DNA from: Arenicola marina
Taxonomy: Eukaryota; Annelida; Polychaeta; Arenicolidae
Length of the DNA stretch: 64,000 nt
Reading direction: 5' to 3'
NCBI GenBank assembly: GCA_964019135.1
Contig: OZ025255.1
Coordinates: forward strand, 21,553,708 to 21,617,707
The translations under genes and the position numbers were made by a program. Shown here in pieces: positions 1 through 64,000 of the stretch (position 1 is the stretch's first letter; each line of letters begins with the position of its first letter). Under the pieces are notes generated by a model. It did not search any database. It was given only the letters and a program-made list of their open reading frames with translations, and was not told where the DNA came from.

Positions 1-1413
1 TTACCCCGTAAAATTCTTGGTTCAACGCAAAGACCCTTTCCCTATTTACCGCGATCAATTATAGCAGTCTTTGAAGGGGCTTTGGAGGGCCGCCCCCCCC
101 CCTCCTCGTAACTTAAGCCTAAGTAAGTTTTTATCGTGGTTCCTTGCTGTATTTTCGCCACAATTAGCCGGAAAGGACGACTGAAGGAGAAATGCATGTA
201 GGTTCACGTGGGGATTTTGTTCATAGTTAATGTCATATTTGTTTTGATTTGTACAGCTAAGCTAATGACAGCGGGCAACGGGATTGCACAATTTTGTAAT
301 GATATAGTAAATTACGTGACATTCGTGTAGGCGGCAACCGAAAGAAACACTAAACCTATATTTAGTAGCATGTGCACGGCCAATAATCAGGCACAGACTG
401 TGAACTGGTCGGTCAGCAGGTCAGAAACTAGCTGAGCCAACGCAGGCCGAGTTCAATGATGATGAAACGCGGTATGTTTTTCGGGAAAATGAAGGCTAGG
501 CGATACACTAGGACTTAAGACGTTATATATGTATCAGTCTTCACACACAGGCACAATATGGACATGCAACAATCATGGAACGGATTATTAGTGAATCATT
601 TTAGTGATTAAATAAGGTTCTTGCCAAGAATATTTATGTGCTGTCCTAGTGTACATGTCTCGTGTTCCGCGACATCAAATTCTGCATGTTCGCGGTCGAA
701 GTTTACCAGTTGGAATAAAGTTAGATATAAACACATAGCAATTTTATGAATCATTTTCTGCATAATTCACATACAAATTCGCAAACAGTACAGGCAGTAC
801 TGTCAGATTTTCGCACGTCCTACAGCCACAGAACTGGGGCTAAGAGAAACTAGGCAAGGCCATCATTTGATGTTTATGCTGCTAGCTACTCGCTGACGAG
901 CGATCGATGTTAACCTTCAGTCACGGAATTAACGTTGGGAACCCAGATAAGGCCATAGGGCGATAAAGGAAGGAAAACAACATGCTTGAACAGATCTCGG
1001 CATCTCCACGCCAGCCGCAGGGGATAGGCTACAACTTCCGGTTGCTAGTGGCTGCTGGGCCGTCCGACGCTAGATCCACGTCAAACTGGATATCTTAACA
1101 TCGGATTGGTTGGTATGGCAATGTGATATCCCGTAGCCTTGGATATAGGCAGTGGAAAGCATCTTCGAAATGGTGGGCACAATGAAAACTGGCTTGAAGA
1201 AAATTTTATTTAGCACTGAGTCTCGGTGTAAAGTAAAGCCTGGCGTAACGTGCCCCCCCCCCCCCCCCCCTCCAACCCCAATAACGATGCCACGCGATTC
1301 ACTGAGCAAGGAATAATAATGAATAATATGAGACACTTACCTTCATTTACCTCAATGTACATGGATGTTCAAACTCTATTCTGTTAATGAAACTTACATG
1401 GATATCCAAAGCC
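1..1413. other. No gene seen; duplicated non-coding sequence
   Basis: AT-rich sequence matched piecewise in copy 2 (43110-50400). The only notable feature is a run of 18 C's at 1253-1270, which is 16 C's in copy 2 (50262-50277). No coding frame is convincing. Confidence 0.6.
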
Positions 1414-1708
1414 CATGGGCGGGTCTAGGAAGTTGAAAAGAGGGAGTTGGCCATTGAAACTTGCGACCGAGGGAAGGCTCGAAACAAAATTGCGACCTAG
1501 GGATCCACCAAGTTTTTGACGACCTGGGGGGAGGGGCACTGAAAATTTGCGAACGGGGGATGTCCACGCCGCGTTATTTCTCACAAAGGGGGGGGGGGGT
1601 CCATGCCTCAGATGGCCTAAATTTTGCAATGAGAAACGACACTTTTCGTCAAAACGGGAGGCCGGGATCCCCGGAACGTCTGGTTCCGCCCACCTGGATT
1701 CACCCTTG
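1414..1708. mobile_element. hAT-like MITE, copy 1
   Basis: About 295 bp with imperfect inverted ends: the left end begins CATGGGCGGGTCTAGG and the right end is CCTGGATTCACCCTTG. The better preserved paralogue at 50526-50812 shows the consensus. It is non-coding and sits inside a short tandem motif built on TGTCAATGAAACTTACATGG. It predates the segmental duplication because both copies carry it. Confidence 0.75.
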
Positions 1709-2370
1709 AAACCCAAATCCTGACAATGAACTAACATGGATATCCAAACCCCCGTTCTATCAATGAAATTTACATCGCCCTTGTGTAAGGTTCGAGTATG
1801 CCGGTGTGCATGCGGCAAAATGTGCAGCGACTATGTGATGGCCCTCCAGTGTCCGCATCCAGGACGTCTTAGAGCACCGCACGGGGGTTGGGAAGCGTAC
1901 TTATTTCATGAAATGTCGTGCAGGTGCTAAAAATGGTATTTTCTCAGAATTAATTTTAATCGTGGAAATGAATTAGACAGATTGATCAATCAGTTTCAAA
2001 TATTCATGAAATATACACTTTATCTTAACTTTCTTGGGATTAAGTGGCAAACAGCGTCAGCAATGCCCACAGTTTGACGTCAATAGAGCATTTCCCGTTA
2101 ACCTCTCTGTACCTGGTATAAAATGTTCTTTTTCGTTCTTGTCTTTTTGCAATACGGACTTCAATAGATGATATCCGTCGGCAATATGGGAAGAAATACT
2201 GAAAATGAGCAATTGTCACACACATATGACACTGTGACATTTATAATATAACGAAATATGGTACGGTGTTGATTTCACCGATTGCATAGATATCATATAA
2301 CACACTTAACTAAATGCAAACCAGAAAAATTAGCAAAGGCGGCGACGCTACATTGGGTGACGGCGACAAA

Positions 2371-3725
2371 GACACGCCAGCTCACACACTGTGCTTGTCT
2401 CAAACACACGCCAGCTCACACACTGTGCTTGTCTCAAACACACGCCACCTCACACACTGTGCTTGTCTCAAACACACGCCAGCTCACACACTGTGCTTGT
2501 CTCAGACACACGCCACCTCACACACTGTGCTTGTACCAAACACACGCCAGCTGACATACTGTGCTTGTCTCAAACACACGCCACCTCACACACTGTGCTT
2601 GTACCAAACACACGCCAGCTCACATACTGTGCTTGTCTCAAACACACGCCACCTCACACCCTGTGCTTGTCTCAAACACACGCCAGCTCACACACTGTGC
2701 TTGTCTCAAACACACGCCAGCTCACACACTGTGCTTGTCTCAAACACACGCCACCTCACATACTGTGCTTGTACCAAACACACGCCACCTCACACACTGT
2801 GCTTGTACCAAACACACGCCACCTCACACACTGTGCTTGTCTTAAACACACGCCAGCTCACACAATGTACTTGTCTTAAAGACACGCCAGCTCACACAAT
2901 GTGCTTGTCTCAAGCAAAAGCCACCTCACATACTGTGCTTGTACCAAACACACGCCACCTCACACACTGTGCTTGTCCCAAACACACGCCAACTCACACA
3001 CTGTGCTTGTACCAAACACACGCTACCTCACACACTGTGCTTGTACCAAACACACGCCACCTCACTTACTGTGCTTGTCCCAAACACACGCCACCTCACA
3101 CACTGTGCTTGTCTTAAACACACGCCAGCTCACACACTGTGCTTGTCTCAAACACACGCCACCTCACATACTGTGCTTGTACCAAACACACGCCACCTCA
3201 CACACTGTGCTTGTACCAAACACACGCCACCTCACACACTGTGCTTGTACCAAACACACGCCACCACACACACTGTGCTTGTCTCAAATATACGCCACCT
3301 CACACACTGTGCTTGTCTCAAACACAAGCCACCTCACATACTGTGCTTGTTTTAAACACAAGCCAGCTCACACACTGTGCTTGTCTCAAACACAAGCCAC
3401 CTCACATACTGTGCTTGTCCCAAACACACTCCAGCTCACACACTGTGCTTGTCCCAAACACACGCCACCTCACACACTGTGCTTGTCTCAAACACACGCC
3501 ACCTCACACACTGTGCTTGTCTTAAACATACGCACCTCACACACTGTGCTTGTCTCAAACACAAGCCACCTCACATACTGTGCTTGTCTCAAACACACGC
3601 CACCTCACATACTGTGCTTGTCTCAACCACAAGCCACCTCACATACTGTGCTTGTCTCAAACGCAAGCCACCTCACACCCTGTGCTTGTACCAAACAAAT
3701 GCCAGCTCAGACACTGTCCCAAACA
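2371..3725. repeat. 34-bp minisatellite array, copy 1 (about 40 units)
   Basis: Tandem 34-bp units built from ACACACGCCACCTCACACAC then TGTGCTTGTCTCAA. Variants at the join (CTCAAA, ACCAAA, CCCAAA) and CCAGCT versus CCACCT are interspersed. The unit has no stop in any + frame and 34 is not a multiple of 3, so all three + frames stay open and encode the same cyclic 34-residue peptide. The long His/Thr/Cys-rich ORFs are therefore a by-product, not genes. Confidence 0.97.
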
Positions 3726-3741
3726 GACGCAAATGGCCTCC

Positions 3742-3769
3742 GGTTTGTTCCACGATCGTGGAACAAACC
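3742..3769. repeat. Perfect 28-bp palindrome at the end of array 1
   Basis: The sequence from 3742 to 3769 equals its own reverse complement, centred on CACGATCGTG with arms GGTTTGTTC and GAACAAACC. In copy 2 only the left half survives (about 52877-52890), followed by about 345 bp absent from copy 1. Confidence 0.95.
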
Positions 3770-4151
3770 ACGCCGGACGATACTGCTTGATGTCGCCAAT
3801 ATTGCCTAACGCCCCATCGACCTTTCACAGAAATGATGAAATGCATGTAAGAAGCGGATATAGTATTCCCTTGACCTGATCTCGCATAACGTCTGACACA
3901 AAACAATTATCAGGCTTTATACTCGAGCCCAAAACATATCTGACCCCCATTAATTTTCACCCGGGCCTTTTTACTTCGATCCAAGCACGAACAAGCAAAT
4001 GGTTAATTCTCATCTGAGCCCATATTGCTTCAATACTTCATCGACAAATATTCTAGTTTGGCACAGCCCAAATTCGGCTTTTAGATTTTCTGTTACTTCA
4101 TAAAAGCACGATGGGCTCTATAACATGACAAGCCATGCACTCACCAATGCT

Positions 4152-4683
4152 TGATTGGCATATGACCGTATCCGCAAGACTATTGACTTAAAGCCAATTT
4201 TCTTTAAAAGAATGGCGTTTCCAATTGATCTTAAGATAGTTGCGCCTTCGGTTGATGAAGCCAATTTGATAGTGCCAGACATGTCGGCAATAATCTCGTC
4301 GATGTCCTACCATTTGGGCCTGTCTATTTTTTCATATGCAGTTTCGCGAACCAGAACTCATCGTGGCAGACCACTCAGCGGTGGACGAAACGGTTCTGCA
4401 CTCTCTTAAAGGCAATTTTGGTTATCGTTATCCGGGGAATGTCATCTGCTGTCGTTGCAACGGCTGAAAGACCCAAATGATCATTACCAAGGCGGTGCCA
4501 ACAATAAAAAAAAAGCAATATTCAGTAGGAACTATTGGTAGCAATTATGCGTTTCAGTCGCTGGTATTTGAGCCCCATGTTTTGTTCTTTAAACCCATTG
4601 ATCAAATCGAATTAAGGCTGGCAGAAGCCATGGTAAAGAAAAGTCGATACAATAAACATGAAGCTACTGAAACTGCCCCATGA
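4152..4683 (+). pseudogene. Unrecognised broken coding-like stretch, copy 1
   Basis: A coherent frame from 4152 (with an ATG at 4212) reads through PIDLKIVAPSVDEANLIV and then loses frame in a T run near 4330. A second short frame at 4477-4683 ends EATETAP and is followed by an AATAAA-like motif. The copy at 53684-53935 keeps reading across the point where this one shifts. Composition looks protein-like, but I cannot name a family. It could be the 3' part of a captured or decayed gene. Confidence 0.4.
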
Positions 4684-4689
4684 GCGCGA

Positions 4690-7540
4690 TGTATTATAGA
4701 GTGCATTAAAAGAAAAACACGGAAACATGTTGACGCAACAATAGAAAATAATTACGGAAAGATATACATAATGCATCATATAATTTTATTCATTTTGGGG
4801 ATTTGCATTTTGTGCCAAAAAACCTTCTTCTCCCCCAATTCAAAAAAAATGCATCCACAGTGATGTGACCTGCTTGGTCGAAACCACATCTACCACATTT
4901 TAGAAATTAGCGAAAGAAAATTGATTCTATTTGCCAAAAAACACCATTTATGCCCGAAAGGCCGTACTATGTCAGTTCAAAATGCCTTCTTCTCCTCCAA
5001 TTCGGAACATTTTGCATGAACAGTGATATGACTTCCTTTGTTTATGCCATATGTAAGAAATTAGCGAAATGTATTTTTAATTTTGTCATTAAAAATGGCC
5101 ACTGTGCATAGTTGTGAAGAATGTATGCTCAAAAGTAGAATAAAAATATTTGTCACATTTAGTTAAGCAGATCATGATGCAGAACATACTTACCATGGAC
5201 ATATGTTACATTGCTGTTGATGTGCTCATGTGTGCTGTAAGCAAACGCAAATAAATCGCTTATGTCGTACTTTCTACGTGTTCTGTACATTTATTCAGTA
5301 GTATTGTAGTATGAGGTGCCTTTGAAGACAACAAAATATTGACGTATTCTGTGCAATATTAAAACAGCCTTTTAAGTAGATGAAAGTAGATTGTTTGACC
5401 TTTTAGAATCAAGACTAAAAGTTTCTCAAAAAGCTGCGCGGACTATTTTATCGCGCGGACGTCCTAGCGAGCCACGGTCGACATCACACAGATTGCCGAA
5501 CAGCGAACAGGTGCGCAGGGATATAAAACCGGCCACCAACTTCTGCTAATTTTTTCTTATTTGTTCCGCCTTAATTTGATATCAATAAGAGACAGCATAT
5601 CCTTTTAAAGCAAACTAAATGACTCCCTATCGTGCCATCGCATTGTCATCGCCAAAGAGGAAAGCCCTATCCAGGGGGGGGGGGGTGCAAAGGGTATGTG
5701 CGTTCCTCGGGATTTGGTGTTTCATTTCACCGTGAACTGGGAATAAGAAAAATAATTCTTCGTGAACTGGGAATGGGGTATTAGCCGACCGCCGTGATCA
5801 AGGATATTCATTAATCGTGAACTGGGAATTTTCATGAATAAAGACATTTTGGGGAATAAAGAAATTTATTCTTCGTGATGTGGGAACACACCCCTCCCTT
5901 GCCCCCTCCCCCCCCCCTATCCGCCCCCCGCCCCCCGAAGCAGGTTGATGCAACGGTCCACTTTTTGGCCGGTTCAAAAATAGCGGAAGGGTGGCGCTGT
6001 ATAAAATCTTAACGACCGGGATTGGCCGGTGTCATTAAAAAAAGACATCCGCGCTTGGAAACGGGAACCGGATCCAGTACCCCTGGCTTCCTGAATGGAA
6101 GTTACGTTACTGCCTCACAAATCTGCCAGACGGTTTTCCAATATCTATGAAACCAGTGACTCCATTTTAGTCTGCTGGAAGCTGTTGAATCGTGCTTCCA
6201 TCTGGTGACCTATTCGGCGATAATAGGATTGGGACAGTGCAACGAGAAGATACCGTCTGGTGTAGATAGATAGGTGTAAGTCACGCAACCGTAGCCGTAG
6301 CAAGGCATCAGCGAGATGCACAGTCGCAAGTTCTTACGTTTTTTTGTCGTTTTTTTTTTGTTTTATGCTGATCTCGGAAACACTGAAACCGGACACTAAT
6401 ATCAGCGATAACTGTGCAACTTTTCATGACGCGGTTACCATGTTACCATGACGACATATTTTTACCTTCTGATTTTCGCCACACATTTAGTTTAAGGAAA
6501 TGTGACCCAAAAGGACTGTTTAAGTGCAGACGGCCACTGGACGCACGACCAAGTTCGCTATGTTGGAGATCGGGCTGAAATCTCGACGGCACACCGACCG
6601 ACGACCGAAAAATAGAAAATGTCACAACGCGGAGCCACGTCGGCACCTCGTCGGCACCGCATACAGTGGGCGTCAGCCAAGTGAAACTCAAGTATTCTAT
6701 TTTTGGGGCCCGCCTCTGCGTCTATTCCGTTGCCGTATCTAGTGGGCGTTAGCATATATATTACATATTATTTTACTAAATGAAACCGTGTCTATTTAAA
6801 GCGGGTAAAAACGTTAATATAATCGTGAGGCCTTAGTAATGTTTTGGTCCTGAAAGCAACATTGCAAAATAAGACACGTCTTAGAGAACAACGGGTTCAA
6901 AGATTCTGAAATAAATTTGCAATCCTGTCCGAGAACCACTTTCGATTAAGCAATTAAAAATTCAACAGATTATATCAGTCTAATATGAGTGCTTGGACTT
7001 TTTATAGTGTGTTAAATATGAGCAAAGTTAGGCAAACATCGGCCCTTTCGCTATTTCCGGTTTGGGTCTCGCTCTCTGATTAGCTAGCGCCAGCCATGCC
7101 CACCAAGAGAGCTGCGCCCGGGAAAGTTGCGTTTTCTCGACAGGCGGTCACTTCACCATAAGTCACTTGACCATAATTACCCAAATATGCGCAATAAACA
7201 TATGATAGAATTCATATTTCTTAAGAACATTGTGGATAAGTTTCAACACGTTTAAGACTTAGCCCTTTACTCAGCCTGTCCATGTCCATCACAATAGCAT
7301 TGCCTAAATATATCCAGGCGAATTATGGGTAATTCATACTTGCAATGATATATCTATATCTGGTTACCACACACGCACAAAATTATGGAATATCTAATTA
7401 ACTAATCTATGTGCAAGATATATATATTGACGGATGCAGCATCTCATATTGAACAAACGAATGTAAGTGTCGACGTGTCTTAGAGTGATTATTGCCCAAG
7501 GAAAGTCAATCTAAAGATAGCAAATTTTTTTCAGAATTTG
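4690..7540. other. No gene seen; duplicated AT-rich sequence
   Basis: Matched in copy 2 by about 54160-56500, except 5510-6005, which is present only here. 5400-5545 contains a dispersed repeat (TTTTAGAATCAAGACTAAAAG ... ATATAAAACCGGCCACC) that is also found inverted at about 48255-48480. I see no coding exon. Confidence 0.5.
5669..5935. mobile_element. GTGAACTGGGAAT-family MITE between G and C runs
   Basis: Bounded by a run of 10 G's on the left and C-rich sequence on the right. The interior has repeated GTGAACTGGGAAT and ATTCTTCGTGAACTGGGAAT, then TATTAGCCGACCGCCGTGATC. Relatives lie at 9186-9320, 15240-15462 and 35745-36073. It is absent from copy 2 and has no coding capacity. Confidence 0.7.
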
Positions 7541-7795
7541 CTATACATTAAGCAAATCCATCACCTGGTTCCAAACTTCTGACATGTCAGGCAATCTAGA
7601 GAACACAGTGGCGTCTTGTGCCTCTATTTGGCAGGCAATTTCAAAATCTCTGTGGTCTGGCTCATGGACTACTATATATTCTGAATTATCGCGTTCGGTC
7701 AAGATGGGGCACGGTATTTCTGCTGCTGTGACCGCTTTGCTTTGCCCATTTTCTCAGCTTGGTAACAAGCGCATTAGGATTCCATAGTCTTTCGG
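7541..7795 (-). pseudogene. Unrecognised gene, last exon, copy 1 (frameshifted)
   Basis: On the minus strand a pyrimidine tract and AG acceptor (TCTCTTTTTAAAG) precede ERLWNPNALVTKLRKWAK. The frame is lost at a one-base difference in a C run, and resumes in another frame through YIVVHEPDHRDFEIACQ to WNQVMDLLNV and a stop at 7541-7543. The paralogue at 56514-56767 reads through. Differences between copies are mostly amino-acid changing, so neither looks under selection. No family recognised. Confidence 0.5.
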
Positions 7796-8521
7796 CTTTA
7801 AAAAGAGACCTTTGTCTGTCAGACGGGTGGGCGGGGGGCGGTGCGGTTAGGTTCTAAAATTAAGCCTCCTTTTGCGACTTGGCCAATAGACTATGAGGAA
7901 AGACGACTCTGGCTGAATGCCCGCGGCCAGGATATTATACCCATGACAAAACATCCTAACTCTCATTCCAGTGTCTGACCCTTAATCTCTAATCCCTGAC
8001 CCCTAATAACTAACTCTGTCAATGTCGGGTCATTGACAGCGCCAATCATGACCCTGATTTCCAATGGCTGACCCTTAATCCCTGAGCCCTTAATCCTTAA
8101 TAAGTGAATAATATCGGTATAGACCGCTTGTATCATGGGAAGATCAATTTATATACTGAGTGGGTGTTCTTCAGAAAAGAAACTCATAATAGGAAATATA
8201 TTGATGCCTCCCTCTGAAACTAATAATCAACGGCATCACGGGGCTCCCCCCTTCCCCCAGGTTGGCATAATAGTGCCCCCCCCCCACACCTCCCCCTTGG
8301 GTGTGCCTCCCCCACAGACGCATCGCCCACACCCAACACCCTATGACATCCATCCCTCAAACCAACAGAAATCTTATCGCATTTGTTGGCGGAAGCAATT
8401 TTGGATGCTGCCCCATGATCTCGAGAAACAAACCTAACCATTGAAGCTTTGATTTATATATATATACCTGACAACGCGGAAGAGTATCCGCACAAAACAC
8501 CACACCGTGGCACGTATCACG

Positions 8522-8925
8522 TTAAAGTTGCATGTCGAGTTCTTTCCCGCCAAAACTAAGCCCATGCTAAATTTATATCAAAATTTGCAGAAAAGCAGAT
8601 TGTTTCATTCTATAAATTCAGAAACCTGATAAACATCGCCGTTTTGTCTGCTGTGTGGCAAACGTGTGTATCCCGTGACACAGAACTCTCCTGCGGCAAT
8701 GCTACTTATACCAAAGCATCGCGAAGCACACGAACTGATGACATTTACCACTAAAATGAAAACTTGTGGTAAATCGATATCACGGGTAAGGCTAAGAGAC
8801 ACTATTTGGCAGTCTGGCATGGGTAAGTATAGACAAAAGAAATCTTGAACCATTCAAGGACTGATTCTTATATGTCTTTTGACCTCCGTAGTTTTGGCAA
8901 CAAAGAGCTCGACATGCAACTTTAA
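8522..8925. mobile_element. TTAA-flanked MITE (piggyBac- or Kolobok-like ends)
   Basis: TTAA at 8522-8525 and 8922-8925 brackets inverted ends of about 32 bp: left AGTTGCATGTCGAGTTCTTT at 8526, right the inverse AAAGAGCTCGACATGCAACT ending at 8921. Total about 404 bp, non-coding. TTAA target duplications are typical of piggyBac and Kolobok families, but the ends alone do not decide which. Confidence 0.8.
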
Positions 8926-9324
8926 TAAAATTCATGCCTTCTGCCGCATCTCAAGCTAATTTATTTTGACACGTTTTGGGTCAGAACATATTGGTTTGCC
9001 AAAAACAACCGCAATCTATCCTCACCGGGGCGACAACCGGTCTGTTTACACTCTGACCCACTCTCTCACTCTGACACTTTATACTCTCACTTTCTCCATT
9101 TGGGAAATCATTGACTGGCATCGAGTAAGTGTAGGCCTCCATCTGCTCTCTGGTCAAAAGGAAACATATCACGGGGCAGATCACGATTAGATGAAGGGGC
9201 GGATACATGATATAAATTGGCGATTTCCCCATTCAAGGTTATTTAGTATTACAATTCTCAGTTCACGATTAATGAAAATCATTGATCACGACGGTCGGCT
9301 AACATCTCATTCCCAGATCATTAA

Positions 9325-9655
9325 TGCACACGTACTATAATGTTATCAGAAATTCGTATGTACCGTTTCTTTTTAATCTGTACGTACTATCATTTCATCA
9401 AAAATCCGTACGTAGTGTAATGTTATCACTAATCAACTACAATGCTATCAGTAATCCGTACTTAGATCCACTATGATGTTATCAATAATCACTACGAATA
9501 TCTACTACGATGTTATCAGTAATAAGTAGTAGGTATACTATGATGTTATCAGTAATTAGTAGTAGGTATAATATGATGATATCAGTAATCCGTACCTAGA
9601 TATACTATGCTGTTATTTTTAATCAGTACGTAGATCTACTAGGATGTTACCAGTA
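9325..9655. repeat. Degenerate 31-36-bp tandem array
   Basis: About nine diverged units with the core TACTATGATGTTATCAGTAATC plus GTACGTAGAT-like linkers. Spacing between cores varies from about 31 to 36 bp. It ends about 75 bp before the 40-bp array. Non-coding. Confidence 0.85.
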
Positions 9656-9730
9656 CGTTATAAGACCTGCAGGTCTCAATATGCGCATGCCGTTCATTCC
9701 AATCTTAGAACAAAATGGAGTAATCTATCA

Positions 9731-9955
9731 TCCCTTTCTCGGCGAACACGCCCGTTCTCGGCGGTGTACGTCCTTTTCTCGGCGAACACGCCCGTTCTCG
9801 GCGGTGTACGTCCCTTTCTCGGCGAACACGCCCGTTCTCGGCGGTGTACGTCCCTTTCTCGGCGAACACGCCCGTTCTCGGCGGTGAACGTCCCGTTCTC
9901 GGCGAACACGCCCGTTCTCGGCGGTGAATGTCCCGTTCTCGGCGGTGATCCTCCC
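9731..9955. repeat. 40-bp minisatellite made of two 20-bp halves
   Basis: About 5.5 copies of a 40-bp unit: TCCCTTTCTCGGCGAACACG followed by CCCGTTCTCGGCGGTGTACG. The two halves resemble each other, so the unit probably arose by doubling of a 20-mer. It is GC-rich in AT-rich surroundings. Arg-rich frames on the minus strand and matching + frames are artefacts of the repeat. Confidence 0.95.
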
Positions 9956-10823
9956 GTTGTCTGCGGAATTGTCCACGTTCTTTCACTATTTCATAAATAA
10001 TACTATAATACAATAATACAATACAATACAATAAATTTTCTTTTATCCACTTTATGGCTTTAACAAATAAAGTATGCATCTTGGTGCCCAACGTGTCTGT
10101 TATGATGGGCTGACACATGAGAAAAGTCGCACACAAACACATCATCCAAGAAGCAAATTTGTTCGCCGGATCAAAAGTTGGTGGCCGGCTTTATTTCTCG
10201 CACTCTGTTTTTAGTGGCCAATGTTGACACCAGTTCCGGGAAAAACCCATCCCGGTATACGTGTCAGAAATTGAGATGTTATCGTATTTATGTTACAGTC
10301 TGACAAATTAGTTCATGTGGCAAATTTCGGCGGCTTAAAAGCTGAAACTTACTTTGTAAAATCCATTTTAGTTTTCCAATCGTGCGTTGCTTTGCTGCCG
10401 CCATTCACGTTACAGATACAGGTGTCAACGCGCGTAACTGATATTTACATAAATAGTTCCAACAAACCAACCGAACTTAATAACTATAGACCTGAATCAT
10501 ATGAAATCCAACTATAGAAATACAGGCCTAGCTACAATTTGCGAAACAAAAGGTTCATTTAAGAAATATATACCATTTTGCCTAAAACAATTAATATGTT
10601 CGTTAAGCCTACCTCCGCCGCAGAGGCGTAATCACTTTGACGACGTCATATCTCCAGAGAAACACGTCGCGCGAAACCCTTAGTTACTGGTGCTATTGAG
10701 CGCCACTGTTATGATTTTGATCAAATATTGACGTGCAGTTGTGAGTAGATCTATTATTGTCATCGTTAGATCTCCGTGTTGACTTAATGGCGACGTTTAA
10801 AGTTTCATTCGAGCGAGAAAATA

Positions 10824-10973
10824 CATATGGCATTGCTTCTCGTGCGAGAAGAGTTTATCTCAGCACGCATCTCCGAAATCCTGCTTTCGCCTAAAGGCTC
10901 AGGCAGGATTTTGGAGACTTGTGCTGAGATAAACCCATCTCGCACTCGACGCAATGCCATATGCATATCATCC
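10824..10973. repeat. Long hairpin (foldback) in copy 1
   Basis: Arms of about 65 bp pair across a short loop near 10895. The left arm runs from CATATGGCATTGC through GAGTTTATCTCAGCAC and a TCCGAAATCCTG segment. The right arm is the inverse, ending GCAATGCCATATG. In copy 2 (59727-59773) the centre is missing and only the outer arm tips remain. Confidence 0.9.
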
Positions 10974-11196
10974 CTGCGCGCATGTTCGCTGTTTGGTATT
11001 CTGTGTGATGATACCATAAATGTGATGATAAAATAATCCACGCAGTTTTATGCTGAAGTTGTTGTTTCACAGACTCAAAGGCGAGAGGCCGAAAGCCGAT
11101 AAAGAAAATACAGGGCTGCTACAGATCGATGAAGAACCAACAAAATGCCTAACGCCATGTGACCGGCTGCCATGAGTGTTTATTACATGATAAAAT

Positions 11197-12018
11197 GTGT
11201 ACTGGTACTGGTTCCGAATTGTATTAGATTATGTTAGATCGATATATTCGAAGAGTTGCTGCTACAATGTGTTGTACAATTTAGACCAGGCAGGCAGAAC
11301 CACATGGGTAATACATGTGAAGAATTTATTATTTCGCAATGGATTTGGGGCAGTGTGGCTTAGCCAATGTGTGGGAGATACAAACCGTTTTATATTTGAA
11401 TTGAAACTGAAAGCCAGTCTGTCTGATATAACAGACCATACTTGCATGGAAGAGTCTCAAGCTCCAACAAAGTTAAATAATTATCGTGAAATTAAATCCT
11501 TATTAAATTTATTTACATCATATTCACCACAGGCGACATATGATAGCTCTTACCAAGTTGCGTAGGCTAGTAGTAATCACAGACTTGCTATCGCGATAGA
11601 GAGGGGTCAGAAAGAACGAAGAGAAAGATTTTGCCTATACTGTAAAAGCAAGGGAATCGATATATTAGAAGATGAATATCACGTTGGGATGATATGCAGG
11701 TAATATGAAGAACTCCGCATAAAATATTTACCTAATTTCAACTTTCCAAGCAAACTAAAATTTATTTCACTTCTGCGCTGTAAGAATAGTGTATTACTGG
11801 GTAATCTAGGTGCATTTCGCGACCATGCAGCAACATTACACAGTTTGTCAAAAATAGCGCGCAACTTGTCATATAAATGTTTGTATATGTTCAATGGGCC
11901 CGTGGCCCGAAAGTACAATGTAGAAAATGTCTAACGCCATGCAAAACAAAGCAGTATTACTTATTATTGCCAGTTCAATTTTAATTCAAGTTTACCTCAC
12001 ATATGTGCTAGGGGTTAG
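11197..12018 (+). pseudogene. LINE-derived reverse transcriptase tail, copy 1
   Basis: A non-LTR retrotransposon C-terminal region with the zinc-binding signature (C-x2-C ... EDEYH ... C). The frame is broken near 11560 and contains stops at the codon after MICR and again at 11931, then ends PHICARG. Only the tail is present, consistent with 5' truncation or decay. The copy at 60009-60821 is more intact. The LINE clade cannot be fixed from the tail alone. Confidence 0.75.
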
Positions 12019-12344
12019 CATGTCTCCTTGCTTCTTTGGTTTAACTTTCGCATACAATGTTTGAAGTAAAATGTCTAGCCCTTACAAGCCTCCACACACC
12101 TTGTGAGCCAGTCGCCTTCTTTACACAATATCAGAATATATATAAGCATGTCGTGACCAAGAAGCCTGGCACATTAGAGTAGAATAACCAGTTGGCAGCC
12201 ACGATGGTCAACAATACCTGTTATCTGTATGGTTATATATGTACCCCTTACACATATGCACTGCTGTATCAATTGAGTTTTGTTTTTGGGCAATAAATCT
12301 TCTTTTTTTTAAAATTATAATACAACCTGGCACGTGCAACAAGG

Positions 12345-12932
12345 CGAGCCGTTTAAATCTATAACCACAATTAGTGCGTGACGTCATGCTTCATTGTTTT
12401 TTGCTATGTGACTATGGCAACGATTAAATATTGAAGAGGTCACAGGGCGGCTTGGGTCAGATTGCACTATGGTCGTATTCGATTATGCAATCGGAGTGCT
12501 CGGGGCCTGAGGAACGTTAATCGAACACCTCGTGTTGTGATCCGATTGAACACTCGTGTCGTACTCCCCACTTTCCTGGGTGCATGCAAGAGCAAAGTGG
12601 CAGACAAGTGAGGCAAAGAGAACGAAACAGCGTTCATATCGACCCTTTAACACGATTGCGTGCCAAGCGTTCGGTTTCGGAACAACACGATGCCAACTGA
12701 CGCATGCGTATTTCAAGTTATCGGATCAATATCGAATACGACCTATTTCAGCGGCCTTTAAATTTAATGCTATTGTACCAGTCAACACGACCATTGACTC
12801 GTAATAACACGACTTGATGTTCGTATTTGTTCCTTCGATCGACAATCGTTGACATAATGAGGTTGCATAGCAATGAAGCATGACGTCACGCAAGAAAAAT
12901 TATGATTGCTGATTATTGATCTAAACGGCCCG
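12345..12932. mobile_element. Non-autonomous element with about 85-bp TIRs, copy 1
   Basis: The left arm (about 12345-12430) begins GAGCCGTTTAAATC and includes GCGTGACGTCATGCTTCATTG. The right arm (about 12845-12932) is its inverse, ending CTAAACGGCC. A second, inner inverted pair, GGTCGTATTCGAT near 12472 and ATCGAATACGACC near 12731, suggests a nested structure. Non-coding. Target duplication not clear. Confidence 0.75.
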
Positions 12933-14639: not shown

Positions 14640-15239
14640 CCCAGCCAGCATGGCATTATCGGCCCAACGTTGTTTTTAGGTAGGCAACGCAACCGTTTGC
14701 TAGTATACATAGGCGCAACGTAATACCGACCGTCATCTGCGCTCTGCACCCAACCGTTGGCAATGGAATGTTGGCCCAACGTTGTGCCTACGTACCAGCG
14801 TACTGCCGTTAGCGCAAAACACAGCGCCATCTAGCGAGTTTTTGAAGCGACACTTTGATGCGGCAATTTTCTAAGTGACTGAATATCGTGAATTTTGAGA
14901 TTTTGATTCATTTGGCACATTATTATGGTCTTGTCGGTCTGCTTTATAGTACCGGATTATGTAATTTATACACTGACTTAATTAAAACTGTAATATAATG
15001 GTACAGCGGAAGAAAACGGTCACTGAGTATGCAGTTTCTGACCTTTCCTGTATTATCGCTCACACGAGAGCCTAGTTCTTGGGGCTCTTTATCAAACACT
15101 GACTGTCAAACCAGTGCAAAGCCATCGGCAGGTGAAGGCTTGAATAGCACTTCAAACGTTTTTCTTTAATCTTACCACAGTGTTTGACTAGCTGGCCTGC
15201 CCCTGGCTGAAGGTTTTGATGTTAAGAGCCATTAAACCC

Positions 15240-15462
15240 ATTAGGGATGGGGCAGGGGGTAGTTCCGTTCCTCGGGAATGGGCTTTTCATTTCACTGTGA
15301 ACTGGGAATGAGGAAAATAATTCTTCGTGAACTGGGAATGGGATATTAGCCGACAGCCGTGATCGAGTATTTTCATTAATCGTAAACTGGGATTTTTTAC
15401 TATTAAATAACTCTGAATTGGGAAATGGCCAATTTATATCATGTATCCGCCCCTTATTACAC
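15240..15462. mobile_element. GTGAACTGGGAAT-family MITE inside the transposon
   Basis: Contains TTCCGTTCCTCGGGAATGGG, TTCATTTCACTGTGAACTGG, AATTCTTCGTGAACTGGGAA and TATTAGCCGACAGCCGTGAT, as at 5669-5935 and, inverted, at 35745-36073. It lies within the 14640-17291 element, so it is nested. Confidence 0.7.
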
Positions 15463-29589: not shown

Positions 29590-29591
29590 AT

Positions 29592-30605: not shown

Positions 30606-30670
30606 GAGTAAAGCCCGGAACTAAGAATCGCCGAATGCGAGCATTATAACCGTGAAGGGCGTGGGCTAGT

Positions 30671-40800: not shown

Positions 40801-40832
40801 TCCACCGTTCTTTTTTTTACGGGAGGGGCAAA

Positions 40833-50812: not shown

Positions 50813-51502
50813 AAACCCAAATCCTGTCAATGAAGTTACATGAATATCCAAACCCCCGTTCTGTCAATGAAATGTACATCGCCCTGGTGTAAGGTTCGAC
50901 TATGCCGGTGTGCATGCGGCAAAATGTGCAGCGATTATGTGATTACCCTCCAGTGTCCGCATCCAGGACATCTCAGAGCACCGTAAGGGGTTTTGGAAGC
51001 GTACTCATTTCATGAAATATCGTGCACATGCGAAATAAAAAGTTAGAATTGCTCACATAATAGTATTTTCTCAGAATGAATTTTAATCGTGGAAATGAAT
51101 TGGACAAATTGGTCAATCAGTTTCAACTATTCATGAAATATACACTTTATCTTAACTCTCTTGAGATTAAGTGGCAAACAACGTCAGCAATACCCACAGT
51201 TTGACGTCATAGAGCATCATATTTTTTTCCCTTAACGTCACTGTACCTGCTATAAAAAAAATCGTTCTGGTACAACCTTGTCCTTTTGCAAAACGGACTT
51301 CAATAGATTATATCCATCTGCAATATGGGAACTAGTACTGAAAATGAGCAATTGTCACACACATCACTGTGACATTTATAATATAACGAAATATGGTACG
51401 GTGTCGGTTTCACGGATTGCAAAGTTATCATAGGACACACTTAACCAAAAGCAAACCAGAAAAATTAGCAAAGGCGGCGAACCTACATTGGGTGACGGCG
51501 AC

Positions 51503-52866
51503 AAACACACGCCAGCTCACACACTGGGCTTGTCATAAACACACGTCACCTCACACACTGTGTTTGTACCAAGCAGACGAAACCTCACAAACTGTGCTTG
51601 TCCCAAACACACGCCACCTCACACACTCTGCTTGTCCCAAACACACGCCAGCTCACACACTGTGCTTGTCCCAAACACACGCCACCTCACACACTGTTCT
51701 TGTCCTAAACACACGCCACCTCACACACTGTGCTTGTCCCAAACACACGCCATCTCACACACTGTGCTTGTCCTAAACACACTCCACCTCACACACTGTG
51801 CTTGTCCCAAACGCACGCCAGCTTACACACTGTGCTTGTCCCAAACACACGCCACCTCACACACTCTGCTTGTCCCAAACACACGCCAGCTCACACACTG
51901 TGCTTGTCCCAAACATACGCCACCTCACACACTGTGCTTGTCTCAAACACACGCCACCTCACACACTGTGTTTTCCTAAACACACGCCACCTCACACGCT
52001 GTGCTTGTCCCAAACACACGCCACATCACACACTGTGCTTGTCCCAAGCACACGCCATCTCACACACTGTGCTTGTCCCAAGCACACGCCATCTCACACA
52101 CTGTGCTTGTCCCAAACACACGCCACCTCACACACTCTGCTTGTCCCAAACACACGCCACCTCACACACTATGCTTGTCCCAAACACACGCCACCTCACA
52201 CACTCTGCTTGTCCCAAACACACGCCAGCTCACACACTGTGCTTGTCCCAAACATACGCCACCTCACACACTGTGCTTGTCTCAAACACACGCCACCTCA
52301 CACACTGTGTTTTCCTAAACACACGCCACCTCACACACTGTGCTTGTCCTAAACACACGCCACATCACACACTGTGCTTGTCCCAAGCACACGCCATCTC
52401 ACACACTGTGCTTGTCATAGACACACGCCACCTCACACACTGTGCTTATACCAAACAGACGAAACCTCACAAACTGTGCTTGTCCCAAACACACGCCAGC
52501 TTACACACTGTGCTTGTCCCAAACATACGCCACATCACACACTGTGCTTGTCTCAAACACACGCCACCTCACACACTGTGTTTTTCCTAAACACACGCCA
52601 CCTCACACGCTGTGCTTGTCCCAAACACACGCCACCTCACACACTGTGCTTCTCTCAAACACACGACAGCTTACACACTGTGCTTGTCCCAAACACACGC
52701 CAGCTCACACACTGTGCTTGTCTCAGACACACGCCAGCACACACACTGTGCGTGTCCCAAACACACGCCACCTCACACACTGTGCTTGTACCAAACACAC
52801 ACCATCTCACACACTGTGCTTGTCGTAGACACGCGCCACCTCACACACTGTCCCAAACACACGCAA
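51503..52866. repeat. 34-bp minisatellite array, copy 2 (about 40 units)
   Basis: Paralogue of 2371-3725 with similar length but a different mix: CCCAAA joins dominate here, ACCAAA in copy 1. A block of about 10 units at roughly 51840-52060, marked by CTCTGC, CATACGCC and TGTGTTTTCCTAAA variants, is repeated at about 52185-52410 and partly at 52500-52630, showing local higher-order duplication. Multi-frame ORFs here are repeat artefacts. Confidence 0.97.
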
Positions 52867-53683
52867 ATGGCCTCCGGTTTGTTCCACGACCGTTTCGTCT
52901 TTCGATAAATTCATCCAGTCGTGAAACCCATTTGACACGCGCATTAGTTAAGCACTACAGAATGACTTGGCTAAGGCAACATAGGAATACGATGAACAAG
53001 GCAATAACATGACCCACTTTCTAATTGGTATTATTGATTTTAAGATAGCTACATGGAGTCCGTGTCAGAAAAAACAAGTACTGACATCCATTATAACCGA
53101 TTACTGGGTGCCACTACATTCAATTACTTTTGCGATTTGATGGTCCCGTCAACCAGTACTTTAGCGTTAGATCAGAAGGCGGCTAAAATTATGTAACCTG
53201 ACCCGAACCGCCCTGCGACCTCCGGCAGAAAATGATTACTGGCCGGATGCTACTGCTTGATGTCGCCAATAAAATTGCCTAACGCCCCATCGACCTTTCA
53301 CATAAATGATGAAATGCATGTAAGAATCGGATATATTATTCCCTTGACCTGATCTCACATAACATCTGACACAAAACAATTATCAGGCTCTTCTATTCGA
53401 GCCTAAAACATATCTGACCCCAATTAACTTTCATCCCTGCCTTTTTACTTCCATCCAAGCATGAACAAACACATGTTTAATTCTCATCTGAGCCCATATT
53501 GCTTCAATACTTCATCGACAAATATTCTAGTTTGGCACAGCCCAAACTCCGTTTTAAGATTTGTTATTGCTTCACAAAAGTACGATAGGCTCTGTAACAT
53601 GACAAACCGTGCACTCGCCACTGGTTAATTAGCATACGACAGTACCCGCAAGACTATTGATTGAAAGCCAATTCTTTTAAAAA

Positions 53684-56917: not shown

Positions 56918-57250
56918 GCTATTATACCTATGGCAAAAGAATCGGCTGGGAAAGGTTTAATGCCTTTGTGACTCCCAGCGAATCTGGTTGAATGGGCTCA
57001 GAGACATTCACAGATTGGCTGGGACACTTTATTGCTACTGTCACACAACTAACAGATGACCCAGTCCCACTAGAGCCGCATGGCCATATATCACATGGAA
57101 CTGGCTATTGGTCTGGACCCCCTGCTGCAGGAAAAATGTCAAGCTGATGCCGCTCGCCCGCAACTAGTTCCGTATATGTTCCAAAATTATGGATACTTCA
57201 GTGCCATTGAAGGCGACATGATCAACGCAGAAATGCCTCTAAGGGTCAAT
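56918..57250 (+). pseudogene. Pogo/Tigger-like (DDE_1) transposase relic
   Basis: Reads YYTYGKRIGWERFNAFVTPS, then ESG, a stop where relatives have W, MGSETFTDWLGHFI and DDPVPLEPHGHISHG. This aligns by eye with the DDE_1 core GKR...SESGWM-SE-F--WL-HF and PVLL-DGH-SH. Then, in another frame from about 57086, HMELAIGLDPLLQEK. The second catalytic Asp is replaced. It is a plain DNA-transposon fossil. Copy 1 lacks this block: its sequence jumps from about 7945 to the equivalent of about 57385. Confidence 0.65.
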
Positions 57251-57389
57251 CCCGTATGGTTGCTTGGAAGAACTTATGAGGGGCCTTTGTGTCCTCTTGG
57301 TGTTATGTGTCCCTCATCGCTGTTCAACCGGCTGCGTGGCCCACCGCCGTGGGCCTTAACCCGTGGATCCTATCCATATTCCCTAAGTC

Positions 57390-57680
57390 CTAACTCTCAT
57401 TCCAATGTCTGACCCTTAATCTCTAATCCCTGACTCCTAATACCTAACTCTGTCAATGTTGGGTCATTGACAGCGCCAATCATGACCCTGATTCCCAATG
57501 GCTGACCCTTAATCCCTGAGCCCTTAATCTTCAATCCCTGACCCATAATTCCTAATACCTGACCCTTAATCTTCAATCCCTGACCCATAATTCCTAATAC
57601 CTGACCCTTAAGACCTAACCGATGACCTTTAATGCCCAATCACAGATTCATAACCCTTAATCCCCGAGCCTAACAATAAT
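57390..57680. repeat. Degenerate CCTGACCCTTAATC tandem repeats
   Basis: CCCTGACCCTTAATCT, CCTGACCCATAATTCC and CTAATACCTGACCC recur with loose spacing, and two 56-bp stretches (about 57525-57640) are close repeats. Copy 1 has a shorter version at 7965-8105. Confidence 0.8.
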
Positions 57681-60008
57681 CGAGGGGGCTGAATCGGCGA
57701 TGAGGGACACATAAGACCTGGAGAACACGCAAGGCCCCCACAAACGTATCATATCCCTAATCCAACCCAAATAGAGATGCTCGCGGAACTAGAAATTGCG
57801 ACAGTTTGCAACATTATAAAGAAACCAATAGCATGACAGGTATGCTTTCAGAGTATGTCCATGTTCAACGAATATGTTGGTCATTTCTACTGTTATCTCA
57901 GACCGACCGCAGCAAAGATGCCTTAAGCGGCGATGACAGAACCGTGCCTTCCAATTCGTCTCCGATGCTGGAAAAGACATCACCACAATCCTACCGGCAC
58001 TGCTGTCTGTTTCAAAAGGAGCTCCGTTAGTTCGCAAGCGAAAGTCCCACACGTCCGTACTCACTTGCAGCCTTTACATCGAATCACTGGGAAAGGGGAA
58101 AAAGTACGGTAACTACAAATCAAGCCTGTCAGTAAGAATAACGTTTTACATCGAGTGGGTCAGGGGGGCCGGATGGCCGTGTAGACTTGGAGAAGAAAAC
58201 ACGGAAAGAGACGTGGTTTGGTGTCAGGGTTGTGAAAGGTAGTGGCGTGTCGGATACCTGTGTCAAAATTGTTTGTATGGCGGATATCACAACAAAAACT
58301 AAATTGTAATATTAAGAAACCAACATATTATTATTGATTTCCATGGCGATAAGTGACTGAAATGCTGTTGTTGCTTTAGATATATATACATCAATTATTG
58401 TAATCGGTTATATCATAACATGTTTTCGTTTGAAATTGTTTGTTATGCAGATATTCCAATAAAGAGAAAGGTTTACTTAATAAGCTTTACCCAATATATA
58501 CCCATCGGTTTCGATTTACATGTAAATAAGTATTTGCAAACGGAAATGTAACCGGGTAAGTTCGGAGTCTGTCGGTAGATTCCGGTAAGTAGGTATTTGG
58601 TGCGTAGCGATAACGTAGCGTTTTTATCTGCCTTTGTATGTCAGTTTAAATATATGTTCAATCTCAGCAAAATGTGTTGAACTAAGACATACAGTGGATA
58701 AAAAGCAATGACTGATATAAATTAATTTCTAAGGGTAAATATCGTAGTACCCATGGTGGACTATTAATGTATTTAAGTGAATAATATCGGTATTGACTGC
58801 TTGCTTCTTTCACTATTTCACTTCTTTCACTATTTCATCCATAATACAAATAAATGTTGGTTCTTTGATCCACTTTATGGCTTTAACAAGTAAAGTATGC
58901 ACCTAGGGGTCCAACGTGTCTGTTATGACGGGCTGACACGGGACCTGCATATGAGAAAAGTCGCACACAAACACATCACCCATCGCGAGGAATGCCGACT
59001 GGTGTACACACTTATGCCATTAGGCCCCTTTCAGTTGTAACACTTCTGTTTAAAGCAACGTATTCTGTATTTTTTTGTATTACCAAACTCTTCCCTATGT
59101 CAAATAAGCATATTCCGTCTTGAATTTAAATACTGAAAGCATGTGGGCTATGCGGAGAGAAGCAAATTTGTTCGCCGGATCAAAAGTTGGTGGCCGGCTT
59201 TATTTCTCGCACTCTGTTGTTAGTGGCCAATGTTGACACCAGTTCCGGGAAAAAACCCATCCCGATATATGCGTCAGAAATTGAGATTTTATCATATTAT
59301 GTTACAGTTTGACAAATTAGTTCATGTGGCAAATTTAGGCGGCTTAAAAGCTAAAATTTACTTTGTAAAATATATTTTAGTTTTCTAATCGTGCGTTGTT
59401 TTGCTGCCGCCATTCACGTTACAGATACAGGTGTCAACGCGCGTAACTGATATTTACATAAATAGTTCCAACAAACCAAACACGAAAAAAAGGCTCATTT
59501 AAGAAATATATACCATTTTGCCTAAAACAATTAATATGTTCGTTAAGCCTACCTCCGCCGCATATCTCCAGAGAAACACGTCGCCCGAACTGGTGCTATT
59601 GAGCGCCACTGTTATGATTTTAATCAAGTATTGATGTGCAGTTGTGAGTAGATCTATTATTGTCATCGTTAGATTTCCGCGTTGACTTAATGGCGACGTT
59701 TGAAGTTTCATTCGAGCGAGAAAATACATATGGCATTGCTTCTCTTAGCACGCACTCGACGCAATGCCATATGCATATCATCCCTGCGCGCATGTTCGCT
59801 GTTTGGTATTCTGTGTGATGATGCAATAAATGTGATGATGAAATAATCCGCGCAGTTTTATGCTGAAGTTGTTATTTTACAGACTCCAAAGGCCGCGAGG
59901 CCGAAAGCCGATAATGAAAATACAGGGCTGCTACAGATTGATGAAGAGCCAATAAAAAGCCTAACGCCATGTGACCGTCTGCCATGAGTGTTTATTACAT
60001 GATAAAAT
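57681..60008. other. No gene seen
   Basis: About 57681-58770 is present only in copy 2 and is unrecognised. 58780-60008 matches 8107-8130 and then 9979-11196 of copy 1, including the collapsed hairpin at 59727-59773. Confidence 0.5.
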
Positions 60009-60821
60009 GTGTACTGGTACTGGTTCCGAATTGTATTAGATCATGATAGATCGATATATTCGAAGAGTTGCTGCTACAATGTGTCGTACAATCTAGACCA
60101 GGCAGGCAGACCCACATGGGTAACACATGAGACTTTATTATTTCGCAATGGATTTGGGGCAGTGTGGCTTAGCCAAAGTGTGGGAGATACAAACCGTTTT
60201 ATATTTGAATTGAAACTGAAAGCCAGTCTGTCTGATATAACAGACCATACTTGCATGGAACAGTCTCAAGCTGCAACAAAGTTAAATAATTATTGTGAAA
60301 TTAAATCCTTATTAGAACCTGAAGTGTATTTACATCTAATTCACCACAGGCGACATATGATAGCTCTTACCAAGCTGCGTTTTAGTAATCATGGACTTGC
60401 TATCGCTATAGAGAGGGGTCAGAAAGAACGAAGGGAAAGATTTTGCTTATACTGTAAAAGCAAGGGAATCGATATATTAGAAGATGAATATCACGTTAGG
60501 ATGATATGCAGGTAATATGAAAAACTCCGCATAAAATATTTACCTAATTTCAACTGTCCAAGTAAACTAAAATTTATTTCACTTCTGCGCTGTAAGAATA
60601 CTGTATTACTGGGTAATCTAGGTGCATTTCGCGACCATGCAGCAACATTACACAGTTTGTCAAAAATAGCGCGCAACTTGTTATGTAAATGTTTGTATAT
60701 GTTCAATGGGCCCGTGGCCCGAAAGTACAATGTAGAAAATGTCGAACGCCATGCAAAACAAAGCGGTATTACTTATTATTGCGAGTTTAATTCCAATTCA
60801 ACTTTACCTCACATATGCTAG
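60009..60821 (+). pseudogene. LINE-derived reverse transcriptase tail, copy 2
   Basis: A 168-codon frame ends with ALTKLRFSNHGLAIAIERGQ, RERFCLYC and EDEYHVRMIC, the C-C-H-C finger found after the RT domain in many LINEs. An in-frame TAA follows MICR, and reading then resumes in the same frame (YEKLRIKYLPNF ... FISLLRCKN ... LGAFRDH) to a stop at 60821. No RT catalytic YADD or endonuclease is present, so it is a dead 3' fragment shared by both duplication copies. Confidence 0.8.
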
Positions 60822-61154
60822 GCGTTAGCATGTCTCCTTGCTTCTTTGGTTTAACTTTCGCATACAATGTTTGAAGTAAAATGTCTAGCCCTTACAAGCT
60901 TCCACACAGCTTGTGAGCTAGTCGCCTTCTTTACAAAATATCAGAATATATATAAGTAGGTCGTGACCAAGAAGCCTGGCACATTAGAGTAAAATAGCCA
61001 GTTGGCAGCCACGATGGTCAACAATACCTGTTATCTGTATGTTTATATATGTACCCCATACACATGTGCACTGCTGTATCAATTGAGTTTTGTTTTTGAG
61101 CAATAAATGTTCTTTTTTTTAAAATTATAATACAACCTGGCACGTGCAACAAGG

Positions 61155-61742
61155 CGGGCCGTTTAAATCTATAATCACAATTAGTGCGTGACGTCATGCT
61201 TCATTGTTTTTTGCAATGTGACTATGGCAACGATTAAATATTGAAGGGGTCACAGGGCGGCTTGGGTCAGATTACACTATGGTCGTATTCGATCATGCAA
61301 TCGGAGTGCTCGGGGCCTGAGGAACGTTAATCGAACACCTCATGTTGTGATCCGATTTAACACTCGTGTCGTACTCCCCACTTTCCTGGGTGCATGCAAG
61401 AGCAAAGTGGCAGACAAGTGAGGCAAAGAGAACGAAACAGCGTCCATATCGACACTTTAACACGATCCCGTGCCAAGCGTTCGGTTTCGGAACAACACGA
61501 TGACAGCTGACGCATGCGTATTTCAAGTTATCGGACCAATATCGAATACGACCTATTTCAGTGGCCTTTAAATTTAATGCTATTGTACCAGTCAACACGA
61601 CCATTGACTCGTAATAACACGACTTGATGTTCGTATTTGTTCCTTCGATCGACAATCGTTGACATAATGAGGTTGTATAGCAATGAAGCATGACGCCACG
61701 AAAGAAAAATTATGATTGCTGATTATGGATCTAAACGGCCCG
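61155..61742. mobile_element. Non-autonomous element with about 85-bp TIRs, copy 2
   Basis: Paralogue of 12345-12932 with the same outer ends (GGGCCGTTTAAATC and CTAAACGGCC) and the same inner inverted pair. Both duplication copies carry it, so it predates the duplication. Confidence 0.75.
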
Positions 61743-64000
61743 CGTACTCTCATGTTCCACGTTTCGTGGTGACTAGAACACAATATGTGGGCAGGTCTGC
61801 GATTTGTCAAATATGTCAGTATTTACCACAATTTAACGGCGTGAACGTTAGAACCGTATTCATTGCCGATGTAACGTTGGTGCATCTATTGCTTTGTATC
61901 AGTATAAGGTACTGGCGGATCCACTGGGTGCAAAGTTTCCAGATGTACCCCACCACCCCCACCCTTTTAATGAAAATTGTGAGCCTATTTCATTCTAAAT
62001 GAAGATGCCCCTGTCTTTTTGGCTGAGTTTTCGGATCCCCCTCCCAAGGTTTGCAGATATATTCCAACGCCACCGATTTTTTAGGGCGACGGCCATTTTT
62101 AATGCAAATTGAAGGTCTATTCCAATATAGGTAAGGATACCTAACCTCTCCTGGTTTTTCAGAGCCAGCTCTCATCCGCGGCCTATTTTCCAAATCCTGA
62201 ATACTGTCCTTAGGTATTTGGCAGTTATACACAACATGCAAACACTACCTTCTACATCTATGTGTAGAATATGCCGATCCCCAATCGATCTAGATGTGTG
62301 CCCAATATTTGTCGGTGTATCACGTGCATTAGCTTGGCACGCGTTCGAGGGACTGTCGGTGCTGCATTGTAAAACGAAATTATCTAGTTGTCATGGTGTG
62401 TGCCTGGCCTGTGCAAATATGGAGAGCGAATTGTCCCGACCGCGCGCATGTCATGGCAGATCATTTTTGGACGTGTTTTTTATTAGTACCATTAAAATGG
62501 TACCGTATTGCTTGCTCACCTCAGTGATTTTCAGAGCGATCGCGGATAATTCGCGGAAAAGATGGGCTGAAACGTCACTCCACGGCAGTTATGAATTTGA
62601 CGCTAGGTCGGGAAACACCCAGTTCTGATGACGTAAGGCGCATCGCGTTATGTCTGCGGGATACGTTCAACGAAAACGTAGTGCAATAAGTCCCTACTGC
62701 CTACTATGGTGCTCAAGCAGGTTTGGCTCTGGATAATGAATGTAATCATTATTTTAATAGGGCGGTACAGTTTTCGCGGGTTCTCTTTCCGGTTTAGGGG
62801 CTTTAATCGGGGACCAACGAACAAAGTGTTCTTAAAACGATTGCGCATCACGCTGCTCTCTAACAACCGTCTAACCGCTCATTTACTACATAAACTTACT
62901 CTAATAGTTATACTTCTGATATGCGCCTTATATGGCTATAAAGTATAGTTCGCCAAGACTTCCGGTATACTTATTTTGTGGACAAACAAACGAAGCACGT
63001 GTTCGGGACGAGTTTAGAATCTCTGCGCACACTGTTATCCTGACTATATGTGACGTTGACGTAACGTATATGTTACGCAAAGACAGAGACAGGGAACAGG
63101 GAGACTGCCTGCGCACCAGCCAGGCACCAAGGGTGTGGGTCCATTGCGGAAGGCATAGCGACATGATTAAGAAATATAGCTTCTCGCATGTAAACACATT
63201 TTTGGTTCAGCGGAGGGTCGTCGTCGGTGACCTCAACGCCTGGCGTGTGATTGGCTAACTCTGGTCACGTGTTCCGAACATGTCGACACCCACATGATGG
63301 GCGAAAATCACTGCTTGATACTGTTGATGTGCGATTTTCTCGATGATGGTTTCTTTTTAAACAAAACGATTAACGGCAAATAAATTTTATACCAGCAGAT
63401 TTTAACTTTTATATCACATTGCAGCCGCCCGGTATTTTCTTTTAAGTGGCTAAAGGCAATAATACCCGTAAATTTTTCATGGCGTAATACACGAATGCGA
63501 CCTTTCTGTGCCACCAGTATGAGAGCAATTGTCTCTAAAAGCATGTCCCCTTATATTCTTGTAAACTATAATATTGTCGTTGTGTAATAAGGAGCTCAAT
63601 ACATGATTTGCACCTGAAACCTAAAATATCTTTCACGGAAATGGCAGTATGAGCAGCTTTCAACGTCGCTCTTCTTTCAAACTATATGTTTACGAAAGGA
63701 CAATACCATTTCAAGAAGATTGCATTTCTGCAGAAAAGTCTGCTTTGAGACGAGTGGCGACCATCAGCATATTACATAAAAATAGCATGTTTCTATAGTT
63801 GTCTTATAGCATGTGGGATTTGTCTTATAGAATGTGGGATTTGTCTTATAGCATGTGGGATTTGTTATAACATGTCTATAGATTTCTATGAAATGAATGT
63901 GCCCAATATCATGTCTACATGTGTGTTCTATGTGTGGAAATGAATTTTAGAAGAAACAAAAGTCAGTGTAGCGGGAGGCGGGTCGGCCTATGGCTGTTCA
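61743..64000. other. Duplicated sequence to the window end, no gene called
   Basis: Matches 12933-14636 and then 17290-17830. It contains the empty target site of the copy 1 transposon at about 63455-63468, and a 33-bp in-frame addition at about 62565-62597 relative to copy 1. Confidence 0.6.

Follow-up and report, generated by a model that had tools for sequence, protein, structure and literature searches.

Architecture of the receptor array

The 64,000-nucleotide stretch that we analysed (the window, C8:21,553,708-21,617,707) holds one recognised gene, a class A G protein-coupled receptor (GPCR), and lies within a tandem array about 243 kb long. In the assembly that it comes from, the only COX1 match is on C762; the frame contains 15 TGA and 5 AGA codons and stays open under genetic codes 4, 5, 9, 13 and 14 but not under 1 or 2, so a vertebrate is excluded, and with the GPCR we read the source as an invertebrate animal. 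After adding neighbouring sequence on C8 (180 kb to the left of the window and 100 kb to the right), comparing the region with itself and searching the assembly (867,369,267 bases in 762 contigs) with the GPCR, we resolved the array into six head-to-tail units of about 40 kb, U1 to U6, all in one direction and each carrying one open 465-codon class A GPCR. The array spans about C8:21,413,072, where a remnant lies, to about 21,656,107, and there is not a single N across the 344 kb of window and added flanking sequence. The whole unit recurs together with its GPCR, the spacing from one GPCR to the next being 39.8, 40.3, 40.0, 43.2 and 43.6 kb. Unit junctions are in phase, and at least three head-to-tail copies, here six, stand on one chromosome of the assembly. 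The window takes in the right part of U4 and the left part of U5, the boundary of U4 having been placed at the point that matches the left edge of U1. The features discussed below are as follows, in window positions (negative positions lie to the left of the window).

1-25853, plus strand: right part of U4, type B (whole unit, -18035 to 25853)
2367-3717, plus strand: 34-bp minisatellite of U4, 39.8 repeats (tandem repeat analysis)
14640-17291, no strand assigned: DNA transposon of 2652 bp whose terminal inverted repeats match perfectly over at least 12 bp, present only in the B units U2 and U4 and with an empty site in U5
25306-25340, no strand assigned: point where the near-identity of the A-B-A-B block ends on the right (identity to U2 99.76% leftward, 96.3% rightward)
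25854-64000, plus strand: left part of U5 (the unit ends at 72341), putatively type C to about 57.1 kb and type A beyond
29586-33627, no strand assigned: U5-only interspersed-repeat segment with an internal 170-bp tandem array (the genome query ended at 33500)
40380-40802, plus strand: 14-bp minisatellite of U5, which stops 49 bp upstream of the GPCR start codon
40852-42249, plus strand: GPCR of U5, 465-codon ORF, class A (Pfam 7tm_1), from ORF analysis, Pfam scan and genome search
43935-46519, no strand assigned: U5-only 2585-bp segment with inverted ends at 43990-44290 and 46073-46371 (95.7%)
51502-52851, plus strand: 34-bp minisatellite of U5, 39.8 repeats (tandem repeat analysis)
57135-57547, no strand assigned: sharp identity switch in U5, read as a recombination breakpoint (identity to U1 per kilobase rises from about 91-97% to 98.5-99.8%)
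59751-63462, plus strand: linker stretch of the unit, with five full-length assembly copies, all in the array (U1-U5)

At both edges the outermost pieces of the array are remnants of a unit at 68-94% identity, which fits the decay expected at array ends. Sequence on both sides is present once: a left flank query (2.6 kb) and a right flank query (4.0 kb) each had one full-length place in the assembly among the best 40 candidates scored, and the other matches listed for them (44 and 64) were partial only, consisting of array remnants or dispersed repeats. The search with the 3.7-kb linker piece scored the best 40 of 7689 candidates. Because such a search scores the best candidates only, we regard the absence of further flank and linker copies as strong but not absolute. 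Within the unit, internal repeats about 75-89% alike, some of them 5-6 kb apart, lie at 18227-28111 and recur in other units. A second tandem duplication lies about 40 kb beyond the right end of the array, at window 138848-149403 and 153495-164000 (C8 about 21.69-21.72 Mb), with a spacing of 14.6 kb, 98.3% identity and satellite arrays of 59, 12 and 45 bp.

Receptor genes and minisatellites

The GPCR of U5 matches Pfam 7tm_1 over the seven-helix region (profile positions 3-260 of 260) with 84 bits against a cut-off of 30.5 (E 1.6e-23). It has neighbours on both sides, that of U4 at -2365 to -971, 2.4 kb before the window, and that of U6 at 84,407. The nearest solved structures are neurotensin receptor 1 and the TRH receptor (best PDB match E 1.5e-16); the array receptors resemble these peptide-type class A GPCRs in their 7tm_1 domain, but the match is distant. 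When the assembly was searched with the U5 GPCR, 91 of 498 candidates were scored and 35 matches were obtained at E up to 1e-20. Six of these lie on C8 at 21.431-21.640 Mb, all on the plus strand, all open over 465 codons and all with 95-100% amino-acid identity to the query; the next best among the 35 matches listed is a single paralogue at 72% with an open ORF (C8:44168317-44169522), near the end of the array's chromosome.

Five distinct receptor coding sequences occur among the six units, those of U2 and U4 being identical and those of U1 and U3 showing two differences. Synonymous divergence (dS) among the six ranges from 0 to 0.079, and dN/dS is 0.22-0.31 in 14 of 15 pairs, namely those that differ. 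An excess of synonymous changes over the neutral expectation was found in five of the five pairs tested (p from 0.011 to 8e-6; about 3e-5 for U1-U2), in a test for which the share of synonymous sites, 332/1395, is an approximation and the pairs are not independent. All six reading frames are open and are held by purifying selection. In an alignment whose regions were named by reading, the differences cluster in the N-terminus, the third intracellular loop and the C-tail, with a few in the helices and other loops.

A 14-bp minisatellite of 32-46 repeats precedes the GPCR in six of six units, ending 36-50 bp before the start codon. The 34-bp minisatellite, which has the same 39.8 repeats in U2 as in U4 and U5, counts 20.8 in U1 and U3 and 20.2 in U6; long ORFs at 2314-3809 and 51730-53012 are by-products of this minisatellite and were rejected as genes. 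Once segments lying mostly in tandem repeats had been set aside, the window contained 171 stop-free segments of at least 75 amino acids, one of which is the GPCR. A Pfam scan of 20 others of the 171 for a second gene in the unit gave none that reached the cut-off, a weak DUF981 match having 15 bits against a cut-off of 29; an ORF of 211 aa that overlaps one of these segments likewise had no Pfam match.

Unit types and exchange between units

The sequence-only reading had reported two long collinear copies, 1-17,830 and 43,110-64,000, matching throughout at low divergence. The match itself stands: in BLAST, 43,110-64,000 covers 11,930 of the 17,830 bases of the first segment, against 901 bases when the target is reversed and 347 for either of two stretches of equal size taken from outside the array, and the order in U4 and U5 is collinear, with large segments absent from one or other copy. 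The copies come from the right parts of U4 and U5 and belong to a set of six units, not two. Nor is divergence low throughout, since substitution identity between U4 and U5 is 85.5-92.8% in the blocks up to 7,951, after which it is 95.3% (148 sites) and 85.5% (166 sites) and then 95.9-97.7% from 10,149 on, with an overall value of 94.88% over 18,339 aligned sites for the extended pair. The limits at 17,830 and 64,000 reflect only the window edge, as homology runs on to 25,853 and 72,341; leftward it continues through the GPCR, itself repeated.

The chained alignment of U4 and U5 contains 16 one-sided segments of at least 100 bp, four in U4 and twelve in U5, which do not all bear out the large clean insertions described earlier. 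The clearest is the 2652-bp DNA transposon at 14640-17291, which combines inverted ends, an empty site in U5 and dispersed copies with the same ends: it lies at the same place in U2 (99% identical), is only 7% covered in the A units, and has 17 near full-length copies elsewhere among the matches listed, 92-94% identical and starting and stopping at about the same bases. This segment and the 382- and 1876-bp segments of U4 are whole in U2 and 0-7% covered elsewhere, except that the 1876-bp segment is 60% covered at 82% in U6. The fourth U4 segment (2244 bp) is no insertion; it is present in all units (85-100% coverage) and is unaligned homologous sequence opposite a 1995-bp segment of U5. Ten of the U5 segments are found wholly or largely in the A units (61-100% coverage), one of 254 bp being absent from U6. 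For two of these ten (1995 and 254 bp) the B units, too, give 82-96% coverage; the other eight are absent or nearly so in B and thus mark unit lineages, not individuals. The remaining two, of 129 and 2585 bp, occur in U5 only (0-7% elsewhere). Both U5-only segments in our feature list (29,586-33,627 and 43,935-46,519) consist mostly of dispersed repeats, and an interspersed repeat with many genome relatives lies between the inverted ends of the latter.

Substitution identities over chained alignments (17-37 kb per pair) separate the units into types. U1 and U3 are 99.59% identical and U2 and U4 99.88%, while U1 and U3 (A) compared with U2 and U4 (B) give 95.2-95.6%, about 95.4%. U6 is 98.69% identical to U1 and 98.77% to U3 against 94.3% to U2 and 93.7% to U4, and U5 is 94.2-96.6% identical to the other five units. 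From these unit-by-unit identities we read the order of types as A-B-A-B-(C/A)-A. Within the A-B-A-B block, which ends on the right at 25,306-25,340, U1 and U3 differ by about 0.3% and U2 and U4 by about 0.09%. U4 carries an 8.5-kb segment (window -15155 to -6667) that has no counterpart in U2, where the empty site shows a clean overlap of 2 bp; the segment adjoins an 8-kb linker deletion, the linker between U3 and U4 being without 8 kb present in that between U1 and U2.

U5 is a chimaeric unit. Over 34-57 kb its identity to U1 is 91-97.5% per kilobase where aligned, before the sharp switch at 57,135-57,547. At 945 diagnostic sites, where U1=U3 differ from U2=U4, it agrees with A at 281 of the 289 that fall in 58-70 kb, and left of 58 kb at 424 of 656, with B at 214 and neither at 18; at 42-44 kb the B letter is in the majority. 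We infer that the left part of U5 derives from a third type, a separate lineage C; a mosaic of A, B and an older component is no less possible than an unmixed third type. Unequal crossing-over would be expected to leave chimaeric units in which identity changes abruptly, as it does at 57.1-57.5 kb and at 25.3 kb.

Origin of the array

Unequal crossing-over is the standard model for tandem arrays. Very probably the window samples part of a genuine tandem array on a single chromosome, in which a GPCR unit of about 40 kb has been multiplied to six by unequal crossing-over, with patchy exchange and, recently, the doubling of a block of two units. When units on sister chromatids or homologues misalign, unequal crossing-over between them would add or remove whole units and could thereby have produced six in-phase copies; patchy exchange between units would account for the chimaeric U5, a recent block duplication would have turned A-B into A-B-A-B, and transposon insertions, deletions and changes in minisatellite length would have driven types A, B and C apart. 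Against this account, a simple single block duplication does not predict the unequal divergence of U1/U3 (about 0.3%) and U2/U4 (about 0.09%) unless exchange followed later. That crossing-over was the agent, and that the order in the assembly is the order in the animal, is our interpretation of these patterns. Segmental duplication, one of the two origins proposed earlier, was thus right in kind and too small in scale, the GPCR lying inside a unit that occurs six times in tandem; its supposed youth suits the A-B-A-B block (0.1-0.4% substitutions) but not the U4/U5 pair, which is about 5% diverged.

The other proposed origin, an end-to-end join of the two alleles of a single-copy locus, is very improbable. 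In a very polymorphic genome, large indels could give collinear copies such an appearance, and false heterotype duplications of such a sort, in which collinear copies on one contig differ by indels as they do here, are documented (PMC9516828). A join of two alleles, however, allows at most two versions, and we find six units in phase, whose receptors have five different coding sequences. To carry that many, a diploid would require three or more loci on each haplotype, or two if U1 and U3 are treated as a single version. The flanks should repeat as well, and each query found a single full-length place among the best 40 candidates scored; the assembly gap that is usual, if not universal, between such copies is lacking throughout the 344 kb. 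It is by its six copies, in-phase junctions, single full-length flanks and lack of a gap that the array differs from the cases documented there, and we reject the join because of the number of copies, the distinct coding sequences, the flanks and the missing gap. Less credible still are a dispersed segmental duplication and the transposition of one large GPCR-carrying element. The units do contain mobile elements, but the closest receptor outside the six, among the 35 matches, is the 72% paralogue at C8:44.17 Mb, and the linker piece is full-length only in the array among the best 40 of 7689 candidates; the receptor and linker searches led us to discard this origin.

An inflated count within a real array deserves more weight, if still improbable. 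The A-B-A-B block would then be a shorter array whose two haplotypes the assembler had strung together in phase, with a true number of about three to five units per chromosome. The identities of U1/U3 (99.59%) and U2/U4 (99.88%) are, in our judgement, within the allelic range, and U2 and U4 share a single receptor coding sequence; being near-identical, the block could be partly allelic or an assembly double. Against this, the region contains no N and the join must fall exactly in unit phase, the 8.5-kb segment of U4 and the missing 8 kb of the U3/U4 linker set the second A-B pair apart from the first, and the two halves have diverged unequally. Haplotigs also look purged elsewhere: 34 TCP1-family matches, judged by place with their sequences uncompared, fall at 11 places on C1-C18 and none on small contigs, so that the assembly looks purged of second haplotypes. 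The tandem array is most likely a real structure, and one ordinary in kind.

What had been suspected as an assembly artefact is replaced by a tandem receptor array, in which six adjacent receptors of the peptide type, nearly identical to one another, occur in one animal assembly. In such arrays copy number may vary among individuals, and short reads or gene models could merge the copies; the identity switches record exchange between units. As a doubtful but conceivable extension, the array might be a receptor locus that varies in copy number and whose units still exchange sequence. Its receptor types A, B and C would then differ chiefly at the N-terminus, in the third intracellular loop and in the C-tail, around a nearly fixed seven-helix core, and the minisatellite just before each start codon, with its unit-specific length, could tune the expression of each copy.

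Clusters of opsin, globin and chemoreceptor genes are tandem gene arrays that evolve by unequal crossing-over together with gene conversion. The array described here resembles them in its head-to-tail units, in-phase junctions, chimaeric unit, near-identical subsets and decayed edge copies, and differs from them in having a long unit (about 40 kb) that contains many repeats and a single recognised gene.
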